From an uncultured Opitutia bacterium (lineage in GTDB: Bacteria > Verrucomicrobiota > Verrucomicrobiia > Opitutales > Opitutaceae), in NCBI GenBank assembly GCA_903840415.1, contig CAIMFY010000051.1, positions 1 through 64,000 of the forward strand: 64,000 nt of DNA, written 5' to 3'. Positions 54,054-58,998 of this stretch are shown here, piece by piece; the stretch's first letter is position 1; every line of letters starts with the position of its first letter. The notes below the pieces were generated by a model, which searched no databases, was not told the origin of the DNA, and was given only the letters and a program-made list of their open reading frames with translations. The translations under genes were made by a program, and so were the position numbers.

Positions 54054-55010
54054 CTACTTCACGCGCGTCTGCGCCCGATGAAAACGGGCGAAGACTTCCT
54101 TTACGGCGAGCAGTTTCAGGTCGCCCACCGGCGCCTGCACGGTGAAATTCGTCGGCGCGTTCAGCGGATACGGTCCAAACTGCCGCGGATCCGTCGGACC
54201 GAAGATGCCGAACGTTTTCACTCCGAGCGCCGCCGCCAGATGCATCGGCCCGCTGTCGTTCGAGATCACCCAGTCAGCGCGTTTGATCAGCGCGGGGAGC
54301 GACACGAGGCTCGTGTTGCCCGTGAGATTGAAAAATTGCGCCGGCGGAAACGCCCCGCGATCGTGCACGTAATTGCTGCCCGCCCAGACAATCTTGCGGG
54401 ACTTGTCCTCGCGGAGCAGTAATTCGGTGAGCTGCTTGTAGCCGCCCCAGCATTTCTCCGCGCGCCGGCTGTCCGGAAACATCACGATTGGCCGCGCCCC
54501 GCCGCGCGAATCGGCAAAGCGCAGGTTGAGACTGTCGACTTCGCGGAAGCGCAACGTCCCACGCAGCTCGGGCTTCGCGTCGAGCACCGGGCAGAATTGC
54601 AGCAGAATATCCAACGCATGGCTTTTCCGTCCCTCCGGCGGCAGCGGCACTTTCTCGTCGTAAAAGATCCCCGACCACTCGCGCGCATCGGTGCGCCCAA
54701 TCTTGTGCTTGGCGTGAGTGCGCGACGTCATCAACCCCGTCCGCAGCAGCCCCTGCATGTCGAAGACATAGTCGAATTTCGTCTTCCGAATTTCCTTCAT
54801 CAGGCGCAGGAAACCTTTCGTCCCTGCGTTGCGCTCAAACAAATAAACGTGATCGACCGCCTCGCAGGCCCGAACGATCGGCGCGAAGATTTCCCGCACC
54901 ACCCAGGAAATGCGCAGCCCATCGCGCTGCGCTTTCAGCGAGGTCGCCACTTGCAGCGCCTGCACGATGTCGCCGAGCGACGAAGGCTTGATGATGAGGA
55001 GTTCGGTCAT
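54054..55010 (-). CDS. GT9 family heptosyltransferase-like protein
   Basis: A protein of 318 residues. LLIIKPSSLGDIVQALQVA is the GT9 N-terminal strand with S-S-L-G-D, YVFDMQGLLRTGLMTS the D-x-Q-G-L-x-R-S/T segment, and DWVISNDSGPMHLAAALGV with FGIFGPTDPRQFGP the ADP-heptose-binding C-terminal motif. It should transfer a heptose to the LPS inner core (WaaC-like: single SSLGD, short length). The start at MTELLIIKP (55010) is 46 bases from the divergent fusion gene; in-frame codons further up overlap that gene. Confidence 0.88.
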   Translation of the reverse strand: MTELLIIKPSSLGDIVQALQVATSLKAQRDGLRISWVVREIFAPIVRACEAVDHVYLFERNAGTKGFLRLMKEIRKTKFDYVFDMQGLLRTGLMTSRTHAKHKIGRTDAREWSGIFYDEKVPLPPEGRKSHALDILLQFCPVLDAKPELRGTLRFREVDSLNLRFADSRGGARPIVMFPDSRRAEKCWGGYKQLTELLLREDKSRKIVWAGSNYVHDRGAFPPAQFFNLTGNTSLVSLPALIKRADWVISNDSGPMHLAAALGVKTFGIFGPTDPRQFGPYPLNAPTNFTVQAPVGDLKLLAVKEVFARFHRAQTRVK

Positions 55011-55055
55011 GGACGGGAAGCACGCGGAGGGCAGATGCGAATCTGCTTTAACCAC

Positions 55056-57014
55056 ATGAGCGTTACGTTTCATGGTTTTTCCCGGCGGAAATCAAACGCC
55101 AAATCCCGTCTTCCTGTCCGCGTGTCGCTTTTTTTTCTCAAAATCCTTGGCTGGCTCGTCGCCCGCACCCCCGAGCCGCTCTTGGGTGCGCTGGCCGCTG
55201 CCCTCGGCGAGGCGATCTTTTTTTTACTGCCGCGTCGCCGTCGACTCGTGCTGTCGAACCTCGATCATGCGTTTCCCCAAAAATCGCCCGCTTGGCACCG
55301 CGCGATCGGCCGCGAGAGCTGCCGCCGCCTGATCGAAACCGGCCTCCTCTCGCTCGCTACCCCATTTCTCGACGCCGCGCGCTACCGGAAAATCATCACG
55401 GCCTCGCCCGCGTTGGTTGCCGCTTACGAACTGCACCGCACGGCACCCGCCGCGACGCTCATTTGCTCGCCGCACCTTGCCTACTGGGAGGCGCAGACCG
55501 CACAGCCGCTCGTCGTGTCAGGGAGCTTTCCGGAATTTGGCATCATTTTCCGCCCGCTCGACAATCCCGCCGCCAACGCCTTCGTTAAGCAATCCCGCGA
55601 ACGCTTCGGTCTGAAGCTGCTATCGCGCAAGGAAGGTTTCGCCGAGGCATTGAAAATCCTGCGCCGCTCGGGTTTTGTCGGCGTCCTCTTCGATCAAAAC
55701 GCCGGGATGCAAGGCGCTCTGACGACGCTTTTTGGCCGCGTGTGCTCGACGACTGAGTTGCCAGGGCTTATGGCCGAGAAATTCGACGCCCGCGTTTACG
55801 GCATTTTTCCGCGCCGGCTCGGCTTCTGGCGTGTCGAGATCTCGGTCGAACTTATTCCCGGTCCGCGCACGAGCGAAGCCGTCACCATCAACCTCAACCG
55901 ATGGCTCGAAACCCTCCTCCTCAGCGACGACAATCTGTGCGCCTCATGGCTGTGGGCCCACGACCGCTGGCGTAATCAGGACATCCCGGAAAAGCGCTTT
56001 CGCCTCGAGGCCAAACGCAATCTCCTCGCCGCCGACCTTGGCGCCCGCGCGCTCGATAAGCTGCCGCATCGCACCCGAATCTTTATCCGTCTCCCCAACT
56101 GGCTCGGTGACGTCGTGATGACCGTGCCGCTGTTGCGCGCGCTCCGCACCTCGCGACCAGACGCGGAAATCACACTCCTCGCCAAGAATCAATTTCTGCC
56201 GCTCCTAGAATCCTGGGCGGTCGCGGACCGCGTACAAGCGCTGCCACATCGCGGAGCCGGTTATTTTTTCCATTTCTGGAAAATGCGGCCTGAATTCCCG
56301 GACGTTTGGTTGCTTTTCACTCACTCAATTCGCGGCGATCTTGAGGCGTGGTTAGGCGGTTGCCGCCAACGCTTTGGTCTCGAACGACGCGACAAATCGC
56401 GCCCGTTTCTCTCTCATGTTTGCCGGGTGCCAGACGATTTCGACGAGCGCGTTCACCATCAGCTCGAACTTTGGGAAATTTTCCTCCGCCACTTCGGACT
56501 TACTGCTCCGCCCGACCGAACGCCCCTCTCAACGCTGCACCCTCAACTCGCAGCTTCTCAGCCCATCGGCCTGATTTGCGGCTCCGAAAACAACCCCGAA
56601 AAGCGCTGGCCGGTCGCGCACTGGCGCACACTCATCGCCGCGTTCCCCTCCGAGCGCTTCATCGTGTTTGGCACCGCCGCCGACGCGACGTTGACCGCAA
56701 ATGTCGCTGACGGCTTCGAACCGGCACGAGTTGAAAATCTCTCCGGCCGCACCGATCTCGTCGCGTTCGCGGATCGGCTGCGCACATGCCGACTTCTCGT
56801 CACGAACGATACCGGCGGAATGCATCTCGCGAATGCGCTCGGTGTGCCGCTCATTGCGCTCTTTGGCCCGACGAATCCGCAGCGCACTGGCCCCGTCTTC
56901 GTAGCGCCAGTTAAGATCCTGCAACCACCCGATTGCCCGCCGACAGGTGGCGCGGCGCTCGCCGACCTTGCGCCTGACATCGTGATAGCCAGTCTGCGCG
57001 CACTGCTCGTCTAA
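55056..57014 (+). CDS. Fusion of lipid A acyltransferase (LpxL/HtrB type) and GT9 heptosyltransferase
   Basis: A single open frame of 652 codons with two envelope enzymes. Residues about 1-320 are an LpxL/LpxM-like acyltransferase: membrane anchor LFFLKILGWLVARTP, catalytic HX4E in SPHLAYWEAQ, and VGVLFDQNAGMQGALTTLFG. Residues about 345-650 are a GT9 transferase: IFIRLPNWLGDVVMTVPLLR, PIGLICGSENNPEKRWP, LLVTNDTGGMHLANALGV, LFGPTNPQRTGP. The two halves would add a secondary fatty acid to Kdo-lipid A and a heptose to the core. ATG at 55035 is an alternative start. No stop or frameshift between domains. Confidence 0.88.
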   Translation: MSVTFHGFSRRKSNAKSRLPVRVSLFFLKILGWLVARTPEPLLGALAAALGEAIFFLLPRRRRLVLSNLDHAFPQKSPAWHRAIGRESCRRLIETGLLSLATPFLDAARYRKIITASPALVAAYELHRTAPAATLICSPHLAYWEAQTAQPLVVSGSFPEFGIIFRPLDNPAANAFVKQSRERFGLKLLSRKEGFAEALKILRRSGFVGVLFDQNAGMQGALTTLFGRVCSTTELPGLMAEKFDARVYGIFPRRLGFWRVEISVELIPGPRTSEAVTINLNRWLETLLLSDDNLCASWLWAHDRWRNQDIPEKRFRLEAKRNLLAADLGARALDKLPHRTRIFIRLPNWLGDVVMTVPLLRALRTSRPDAEITLLAKNQFLPLLESWAVADRVQALPHRGAGYFFHFWKMRPEFPDVWLLFTHSIRGDLEAWLGGCRQRFGLERRDKSRPFLSHVCRVPDDFDERVHHQLELWEIFLRHFGLTAPPDRTPLSTLHPQLAASQPIGLICGSENNPEKRWPVAHWRTLIAAFPSERFIVFGTAADATLTANVADGFEPARVENLSGRTDLVAFADRLRTCRLLVTNDTGGMHLANALGVPLIALFGPTNPQRTGPVFVAPVKILQPPDCPPTGGAALADLAPDIVIASLRALLV

Positions 57015-57021
57015 ATTTCCC

Positions 57022-57996
57022 GTGCCGCTTCTCTCCGTCACCGATCTCCGCACCTATTTTCATACGCGCAGCGGCATCTATCGCGCGGTCGATGGCGTGA
57101 GTTTCTCCGTTGAGCGCGGCGAGACGCTTGGCATCGTCGGCGAATCCGGGTCCGGAAAATCCGTCACCTGTTATTCGATCATTGGACTGCTGCCGATTCC
57201 GCCAGCCCGCATCGAGAGCGGCACCGCGTTCTTCGACGGCACCGACTTGCTTCACTGCACGCCTGCGCAGGCCCGCGCGATTCGCGGCAAACGCGTCGCG
57301 ATGATATTTCAGGACCCGATGACGTCGCTCAATCCCTACATGCGGATTTCCGAGCAGCTCATCGAACCACTGCTCATCCACGAAAAGATTACCCGGCACA
57401 ACGCCCTCGCCCGCGCCACTGCGATGCTTGAGTCCGTCGGCATCAACGACGCCCAAAAACGCATTCACCTCTATCCGCACGAGTTTTCCGGCGGCATGAG
57501 GCAGCGCGTGATGATCGCGATGGCGTTGATTACAAAACCCGAACTGCTCATCGCCGACGAACCCACTACCGCGCTCGACGTCACGGTGCAGGCGCAGATT
57601 CTCGAGTTGATCAAAAAGATGCAGCGCGAGCTCGGTATGGCCGTGATTTTTATTACTCATGACCTCGGCGTCGTCTCCGGCCTTTGTGACCGCGTGCAAG
57701 TTATGTATGCCGGGCGCGTGGTCGAAGCGGCCGACGTGCGCACGCTGTTCCACTCGCCGAAGCATCCCTACACCCGAGGGCTTCAGCGCTCGATTCCGTC
57801 ACTCCAACCCAAAGGCGCCGAGCTCTACACTATCGCCGGTCTGCCGCCGGACGTCTCGAAACCGCTGCCCGGCTGCGCCTTCGCCGCGCGTTGCGAACAC
57901 GCCACGGCGCGCTGCACCGCTACCACGCCCGCGCTGATCGAGCTCGCATCGGGTCACGCGCAGACGTGCCTCCGCGTGCAAGCCGGCGAAATCTAA
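57022..57996 (+). CDS. Oligopeptide/dipeptide ABC transporter ATP-binding protein (OppD/DppD type)
   Basis: A protein of 324 residues. Walker A is GESGSGKS, the Q-loop [10 protein letters not shown], the signature [15 protein letters not shown], Walker [13 protein letters not shown] and the H-loop FITHDLGVV. The C-terminal OppF-type oligopeptide extension has the cysteine cluster [15 protein letters not shown], which may hold an iron-sulphur cluster or metal. It works as a heterodimer with the next gene product. GTG start at 57022, seven bases after the fusion gene stop. No permease or binding protein gene in the window. Confidence 0.92.
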
Positions 57997-58005
57997 ACGC
58001 ATTCC

Positions 58006-58998
58006 ATGGCCGATCCGATCCTCGAACTCCGCGACGTCCGCACCCACTTCCCGGTCACGCAGGGTTTTCTTTTCAAACGTGACCTTGGCACCGTGAAGGC
58101 AGTGGACGGCGTCACGCTCACCCTTGCTCGCGGCGAAGTACTGGGGCTCGTCGGCGAATCCGGCTGCGGCAAGTCCACGCTCGCGCGCACGATAGTGCAA
58201 CTGGTGCCGACGACCGGCGGTGCGGTCATCCTCGAGGGTAAAAATCTCACCACCGGCTCCACCACCGAAGTCCACGACATCCGTCGCGACCTGCAGATGG
58301 TGTTCCAAGATCCCTACGCCTCGCTCAACCCGCGCATGACGGTTTACGCGACCCTCGCGGAGCCCTTGCTGGTCCATGGCGTCTGCCCGGTCGCCGATGT
58401 TCCGGCCCGCGTCGCTGAGCTCATGCGCATCGTCGGTCTTGCGCCGCGGTTCATGCAAAAGTATCCGCACGAATTTTCCGGCGGCCAGCGCCAGCGCATC
58501 GCGATCGCCCGCGCGCTCGCCCTCGAACCAAAAATCATCATCGCCGACGAACCTGTCTCCGCCCTCGACGTTTCCATCCAGGCGCAAATCTTGAATCTCC
58601 TCGCCCAACTCGTGCGCCGGATGAACCTCTCACTTGTCTTCATCGCGCACGATCTGTCCGTCGTGAAACACATCTCCGACCGGGTGGCCGTGATGTATCT
58701 CGGCAAAATCGTCGAGCTCGGCCGCGCCGCCGACATCATCGAGCGCCCGCGTCACCCTTACACCCGTGCCCTCGTCAGCGCAATTCCCACGCCCGACCCT
58801 GACGTCGAGCGCACGCGCCAGCGCATCGTCCTCCCCGGCGATCCGCCGTCGCCCATGAATCCTCCGGTAGGTTGCGCGTTTAACCCCCGCTGTCCGCATG
58901 CCAAGGAAATCTGCAAGTCTAGCGTGCCGCGGCTCTCCTCGTTCGAAGCCGACCGCGAAGTGGCCTGCGTCCGCGTCGAAGAGATCGCCAACTTGTGA
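58006..58998 (+). CDS. Oligopeptide/dipeptide ABC transporter ATP-binding protein (OppF/DppF type)
   Basis: A protein of 330 residues. Walker A GESGCGKS, Q-loop FQDPYASLNPRMTV, signature FSGGQRQRIAIARAL, Walker B IIIADEPVSALD and H-loop FIAHDLSVVKHI are complete. The C-terminal extension shows VGCAFNPRCPHAKEICK, the OppF cysteine motif. ATG nine bases after the oppD stop, so co-transcribed. The pair energises a Ni, peptide or murein-peptide importer whose permeases must lie elsewhere. Confidence 0.92.
   Translation: MADPILELRDVRTHFPVTQGFLFKRDLGTVKAVDGVTLTLARGEVLGLVGESGCGKSTLARTIVQLVPTTGGAVILEGKNLTTGSTTEVHDIRRDLQMVFQDPYASLNPRMTVYATLAEPLLVHGVCPVADVPARVAELMRIVGLAPRFMQKYPHEFSGGQRQRIAIARALALEPKIIIADEPVSALDVSIQAQILNLLAQLVRRMNLSLVFIAHDLSVVKHISDRVAVMYLGKIVELGRAADIIERPRHPYTRALVSAIPTPDPDVERTRQRIVLPGDPPSPMNPPVGCAFNPRCPHAKEICKSSVPRLSSFEADREVACVRVEEIANL

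Follow-up and report, generated by a model that had tools for sequence, protein, structure and literature searches.

Does a single gene in an uncultured Opitutia bacterium encode two enzymes of lipopolysaccharide (LPS) assembly, and what has become of this pairing in related genomes? We analyzed these questions in a 64,000-nucleotide stretch of contig CAIMFY010000051.1 (hereafter, the window), in which an uninterrupted 652-aa reading frame runs from 55056 to 57014 on the plus strand. An earlier note on this DNA had read the frame as an LpxL-type acyltransferase fused to a complete GT9 heptosyltransferase. Our results favor, with a probability of roughly 0.78, a bifunctional LpxL-WaaF protein in the window and a retained pseudo-glycosyltransferase in several of its relatives.

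Extent and architecture of the fused gene

Both halves of the claimed fusion were recovered in one frame. PF03279 matched residues 14-306 (88.0 bits against a Pfam cut-off of 22.3) and PF01075 matched residues 496-614 (92.7 bits against 22), and colinear relatives share the arrangement. The HX4E motif described in the earlier note was seen in the alignment at H140-E145, and the GT9 half is complete as had been stated, with NWLGD, KRW, and NDTGGMHLAN all present (Table 1). A sequencing error or chance frame was ruled out because intact colinear relatives are widespread. A separate GT9 protein translated from an internal start, for which the vicinity of 56085 had been proposed as the place to look, was also ruled out for the window gene: no in-frame ATG, GTG, or TTG occurs between codons 239 and 354, so no such codon would let a separate GT9 begin near 56085 with its N-terminal motif retained.

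Table 1. Coordinates of the fused gene, its parts, and its divergent neighbor in the window (residue numbers follow the 652-aa reading)
Feature	Position	Strand	Basis or remark
Divergent WaaC-like GT9 gene	54054..55010	-	TIGR02193; start MTELLIIKPSSLGD
Intergenic region common to both divergent genes	55011..55121		Alignment with nearest relatives
N-terminal stretch as first read, probably untranslated leader	55056..55121	+	Start-codon comparison with relatives
Fused LpxL-WaaF-type gene, probable true extent	55122..57014	+	GTG start, 630 aa
Acyltransferase domain, residues 23-310, PF03279	55122..55985	+	Pfam 88.0 bits; LpxM 5kn7 superposition
HX4E catalytic motif, H140-E145	55473..55490	+	Alignment
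Linker, residues 311-338	55986..56069	+	Domain borders and structure model
GT9 N-terminal domain, residues 339-490	56070..56525	+	Homology and model
NWLGD motif, residues 348-352	56097..56111	+	Alignments
GT9 C-terminal donor-binding domain, residues 496-652	56541..57011	+	PF01075; WaaF 1psw Z 30.8 over 340-652
KRW motif, residues 516-518	56601..56609	+	Alignment
NDTGGMHLAN motif, residues 584-593	56805..56834	+	Alignment

The start of translation likely lies downstream of the first ATG. Of 70 named relatives located at codon 23 (55122), 49 carried GTG, 6 TTG, and 4 ATG. Only one of 19 relatives compared further upstream (L182, with GTG) has a start codon at the position matching ATG 55056; several of these 19 have leaders unrelated to the window's 55056-55121 stretch, and in L230 a stop codon separates the leader from the GTG. 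Residues 1-18 of the 652-aa reading are disordered in the structure model. Taken together, the conserved GTG, the rarity of a start at the ATG position, and this disorder indicate that translation likely begins at GTG 55122 rather than at ATG 55056 and that the protein is probably 630 aa long.

The gene on the opposite strand, previously read as a second heptosyltransferase, was indeed recognized as a WaaC-like GT9 gene, with a TIGR02193 match of 130.9 bits that lies under the cut-off of 185.3. Its longest frame begins at 55073, and its canonical start MTELLIIKPSSLGD is at 55010, leaving a gap of 45 bases to ATG 55056 or 111 bases to GTG 55122; the 46-base gap that the two genes had been thought to share therefore rests on the unlikely start codon. 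Several of the closest relatives resemble the window in part of the sequence at 55011-55121, as in the aligned stretches GTTACGTTTCATGG and AAATCAAACGCCAAA, and this is possibly a shared regulatory region; a search for a sigma-70-like site between the divergent genes found none. A divergent GT9 neighbor adjoins the fusion at no fewer than 29 of the 146 loci with more than 900 upstream bases, a lower bound because many loci held only 900-1100 upstream bases, barely enough to show a neighbor. The window itself comes in addition, since the counting script took its neighbor's frame too long and missed it. All 29 loci with the divergent WaaC-like neighbor have intact GT9 motifs. Downstream of the fusion, at 57022-58998, two adjacent frames appear on reading to resemble peptide ABC transporter ATPases of the OppD/OppF type.

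We predicted the structure of the protein with AlphaFold2 from a 31-row alignment comprising the window protein and 30 named-locus relatives, which gave a mean pLDDT of 91.1 and a pTM of 0.89. In this model, residues 340-652 superpose on Escherichia coli WaaF (1psw; Z 30.8, rmsd 2.7, 299 aligned, 27% identity), and the acyltransferase part can be laid over LpxM (5kn7; Z 26.0, rmsd 2.5, 251 aligned, 18% identity). Residues 339-652 have a further structural match in the NDH-PSI supercomplex of plant chloroplasts (chain 7wff_a; Z 21.7, rmsd 3.6, 291 aligned, 11% identity), whose GT9-like fold is perhaps another one used without catalysis.

Spread of the fusion and decay of its GT9 half

The fusion is shared by many genomes around the window. 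Of the 177 genomes searched in the order to which the window belongs, 157 matched some portion of the fused protein at E <= 0.001, many of them over its full length, and dozens of colinear full-length relatives have 31-76% identity to it (57-66% within its own family in the order search, up to 76% in the phylum search). The best 80 of the 449 relatives include named members of Opitutaceae, Puniceicoccaceae, Coraliomargarita, Cerasicoccus, and others. Among 20 loci fetched from other families of the class, the acyltransferase profile was found in 19 and both GT9 halves were in frame in 13, a rate that is not a census because the loci came from search hits. A search of 387 genomes of the phylum gave, among the matches listed, none outside the class that spans both domains; PF03279 was matched in each of 28 genomes selected from outside the class, for the most part in frames some 300-380 aa long. 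The comparison of domain order across Verrucomicrobiota advised in the earlier note thus returned colinear fusions in the order and in other families of the class, and the pairing of acyltransferase and GT9 is old and widespread within the class.

A phylogenetic tree of GT9 sequences placed the fused clade of the order, the fused clade of the class, and unfused GT9 of other classes in a branching without resolution, with five unfused or differently built rows (L094-L096, L341, L342) as sister to the fused clade of the class. A constraint grouping all 26 fused rows together with six relatives was not rejected (p-AU 0.488), and a single origin of the order's and the class's fusions is possible on these alignments. 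Split forms were seen at L053 (G014) and L092 (G424), as overlapping separate acyltransferase and GT9 frames or a GT9 interrupted between the N and C domains, and are either assembly errors or real. In G034 (L052:6721-7716), a lone 331-aa GT9 half groups with the order's fused GT9 and no PF03279 match occurs at E <= 1e-8, a domain loss in the reverse direction.

Among titles and abstract openings in the open PMC literature, we recognized no printed description of this fusion. According to the available portion of PMC3087551, an LpxC-FabZ fusion occurs in Bacteroidetes, Chlorobi, and Verrucomicrobia. It likewise joins two enzymes that are linked to lipid A supply, also in Verrucomicrobia, but it involves other enzymes that act early in the pathway, and an LpxL fusion is unmentioned in that portion of the paper.

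We further classified the state of the GT9 half in 115 proteins of the order. Its motifs were intact in 69, whereas 23 proteins were full-length but motif-broken, 18 were of half length (under 530 aa), and 5 consisted of the acyltransferase alone. The motifs were lost in 41 of the 110 proteins with an extension behind the acyltransferase, and 18 of these 41 were shortened. The count covers rows of the order with at least 200 acyltransferase positions and leaves out eight genomes in which the gene was cut or split (G168, G149, G078, G099, G109, G169, G063, G014). Fourteen of the 18 half-length rows match the GT9 N-domain profile with no C-domain match and end near the border between the GT9 domains; the other four (G118, G130, G005, and G164) were called half-length solely because they are short, and G164 probably represents another protein. 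The acyltransferase dyad is kept in nearly all complete rows, with G111 and G048 as exceptions. On the acyltransferase tree, in which many branches are weakly supported, motif status requires at least 15 changes and the half-length form at least 9, the doubtful G164 included. Two placements stand behind well-supported branches: G091 is surrounded by intact forms within the window's own family, and G016 nests among motif-broken forms.

This recurrent decay, together with the complete loss of the GT9 half in the five genomes of f19-g31, would suit an account in which the retained dead halves are drifting relics without function. Against it stand the dN/dS values, which were calculated from 11 decayed pairs and 12 intact ones. 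Decayed pairs gave 0.11-0.29 in the GT9 N domain (0.29, 0.11, 0.12, 0.13, 0.16, 0.24, and 0.28 in 7 of 11 pairs, the rest being saturated), 0.09-0.21 plus one value of 0.50 in the C domain (0.14, 0.09, 0.20, 0.18, 0.11, 0.21, and 0.50 in 7 of the 9 pairs having it), and 0.05-0.22 in the acyltransferase (9 of 11); three of these pairs draw on the same three Akkermansia-like genomes and are hence not independent, and dS is in some cases high (up to 2.45) and a rough estimate. Most decayed pairs constrain the GT half less than the acyltransferase, as relics would. However, the GT9 domains of intact pairs, at 0.01-0.25, overlap with the decayed range, so the constraint on the dead half is real and in part somewhat relaxed. 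Moreover, R367 was kept in 98% and D369 in 93% of the 41 decayed proteins, compared with 0% for W349, 20% for G351, and 15% for D352. We consider functionless relics unlikely. Judging from these substitution patterns, the dead GT9 half is under purifying selection, and the WaaF half has repeatedly been turned into a retained module that is probably non-catalytic.

Likely substrates of the two halves

The GT9 half shares its motifs and the GT-B fold of 1psw with WaaF (heptosyltransferase II; GT9, PF01075). In alignments, D352, K516, and D585 fall on an aspartate, a lysine, and an aspartate of E. coli WaaC, which we take to be D13, K192, and D261 in both number and role, and D352 matches the aspartate of GD in both WaaC and WaaF of E. 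coli. Unlike WaaF, it sits behind an acyltransferase, and its alignment to the heptosyltransferase II model TIGR02195 over residues 342-615 scores 100.9 bits, below the equivalog cut-off of 134.6; two relatives in the class, L081 and L086, exceed this cut-off with 216.4 and 202.6 bits.

To relate the GT9 half to heptose supply, we compared its status with the presence of HldE. Scores of the HldE kinase profile were bimodal, at 217-339 bits in 96 positive genomes of the order and at most 130 bits in the next matches (80 genomes). The 80-genome HldE/GmhA set leaves out G104, G117, G069, G156, G119, and G130, and genomes found only by the phylum search (e.g., G318, G472, G346, and G424) enter no HldE count. 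HldE was present in 64 and missing in 5 genomes with an intact GT9 half, and present in 8 and missing in 38 genomes in which that half was decayed or lost (Fisher 3.8e-17, a raw association without kinship correction). When genomes given as <90% complete in a hand-compiled list were removed, the corresponding numbers were 49 and 2 for intact forms and 5 and 32 for decayed ones. With kinship correction, the link was not significant over 8 supported independent pairs (median p 0.25), of which on average 2.8 pointed in the same direction, 0.0 in the opposite one, and 5.1 showed no difference. PF01075 was matched 2-7 times per genome in 12 genomes taken as intact examples and 0-3 times in another 28, which mostly have decayed forms. 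HldE-like frames measured about 500-560 aa in f29, where kinase and nucleotidyltransferase may be fused, and mostly 320-380 aa in the other genomes, where the two may be separate.

The window's own genome (G000) has Kdo-transferase and HldE-like genes, with HldE domain I at 330.6 bits (cut-off 345) and GmhA at 178.4 bits (cut-off 209.45). These two missed cut-offs count against the LpxL-WaaF reading, as do the non-significant kinship-corrected link, the missed TIGR02195 cut-off, the 5 intact-motif genomes without HldE, and the 8 decayed genomes with it. One alternative is that the GT9 half moves a sugar other than heptose II. The window's TIGR02195 score is in line with this, and so are several f8 proteins that keep LGD or near it in genomes where no HldE match was found; in some decayed forms E replaces D352, so a changed activity is possible there. 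Nevertheless, the heptosyltransferase II cut-off is passed by the two class relatives, HldE accompanies 64 of the 69 intact forms, and the half-length forms have no donor-binding domain at all, which together make another sugar quite improbable.

The acyltransferase half resembles LpxL/LpxM-type enzymes (HtrB/MsbB, PF03279) in its HX4E motif, LpxM fold, and PF03279 score, with Kdo-lipid A as the likely substrate. Known enzymes of this type stand alone and measure about 300 aa (most NCBIfam models are 289-322 long), whereas the window protein has a complete GT9 enzyme behind its acyltransferase. TIGR02207 (NCBIfam LpxL/LpxP) scored 53.4 bits, below its cut-off of 297.8, and this half is therefore assigned at the Pfam level only. 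In a profile search of its own genome, the fusion was the sole PF03279 match. Across the order, 151 of 177 genomes matched PF03279 at E <= 1e-8, 132 of the 151 exactly once, and a Kdo transferase was found in all 40 genomes tested. PF03279 was also present in 17 of 17 own-family genomes picked for missing a good fusion match, in frames of 296-476 aa; one of them, G164, doubles as the doubtful half-length row in the decay count.

Action on another lipid instead of lipid A, for example in PatA-like glycolipid acylation, is a second alternative: the acyltransferase part also superposes on PatA of Mycobacterium smegmatis (5f2t, Z 23.5) and reaches the cut-off of no LpxL model. We rate it slightly lower again than a different sugar, given that the only PF03279 protein of the genome occurs in a genome with a Kdo transferase, that all 17 fusion-less family members still have some PF03279 protein, and that lipid A acyltransferases give this half its top NCBIfam scores. 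The fused acyltransferase domain is probably the cell's LpxL.

Unfused PF03279 proteins (L255-L267, L269, and L273; mostly about 300-390 aa) occupy fusion-less genomes of the family and order. They score 191-239 bits in Pfam, far above the fusion, and look like displacing genes. PRK05906 (454 positions) is presumably a chlamydial-type LpxL with a long C-terminal tail; in a profile comparison only, its best stretches stopped at model position 324 or earlier, leaving the idea of this tail as a GT9 relic without profile support.

Akkermansia and the proposed function

The genome matching Akkermansia muciniphila ATCC BAA-835 (G274) encodes a full-length fused protein that has lost its GT9 motifs, with E in place of D352 and one surviving D in the third motif. 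Apart from the fusion, the only GT9 match of this genome at E <= 1e-5 has intact motifs; PF03279 is matched once, and genes resembling HldE and GmhA are present. The full-length motif-lost form also occurs in G375, G194, and G272, which share its genus code, and G180 has a shortened form.

Available excerpts of published work report one heptose in the A. muciniphila inner core (PMC13135019) and one in its oligosaccharide OS2 (PMC12527988). The latter paper, as far as it is accessible, also describes some lipid A species whose 2' acyl chain bears a secondary one, for which it proposes a "potentially new acyltransferase" (JFJHEM_01585, 23.7% identity to LpxL), gives 99.96% ANI between its strain and BAA-835, and refers to an earlier study that had assigned hexa-acylated lipid A to BAA-835. 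Given this ANI and the single PF03279 match in G274, JFJHEM_01585 is probably the ortholog of the fused protein; it is named there only as an acyltransferase, and the words "heptosyl" and "fusion" are absent from the main text as available. One heptose and a 2' secondary chain agree with an LpxL half that is alive and a WaaF half that is dead, a match that was found afterwards and not predicted. Hexa-acylated lipid A counts against so simple a picture: a single PF03279 enzyme adding one chain would leave it unexplained, and a second acylation would be needed.

We propose that the window gene product is a bifunctional LPS enzyme that would be membrane-associated. Its N-terminal domain, as the organism's only LpxL-family secondary acyltransferase, would put a secondary acyl chain on Kdo-lipid A. 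The product of the divergent WaaC-like neighbor would add the first core heptose, and the C-terminal WaaF-type domain would then add the second from ADP-heptose. In several relatives, the GT9 half, stripped of its motifs or its donor-binding domain, may be kept as a non-catalytic partner of the acyltransferase. The earlier note had seen in the fusion a physical coupling of acylation and core building. The conserved joining of two LPS-pathway enzymes and the confident two-domain model are consistent with such coupling, but it is not obligatory, since relatives keep the acyltransferase with a motif-dead, halved, or absent GT9 and G034 has the related GT9 half by itself.

A broader scenario, to which we give somewhat less than even odds, is that the LPS acyltransferase of the class permanently absorbed WaaF. 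Several lineages, including Akkermansia, may then have abandoned heptose II while a dead or halved GT9 persisted under purifying selection, serving as a pseudo-glycosyltransferase to hold the Kdo-lipid A acceptor in position or to stabilize the acyltransferase; the single heptose of A. muciniphila would be the chemical trace of this history.

Two late LPS steps that are usually described as the work of separate enzymes are thus joined in one polypeptide across the class, including the genome matching Akkermansia. A fusion with a dead GT9 half could explain, in a concrete and testable way, why the inner core of A. muciniphila has one heptose, and the natural series of active, motif-dead, halved, and lost forms makes it possible to ask what a pseudo-glycosyltransferase does for its partner enzyme.
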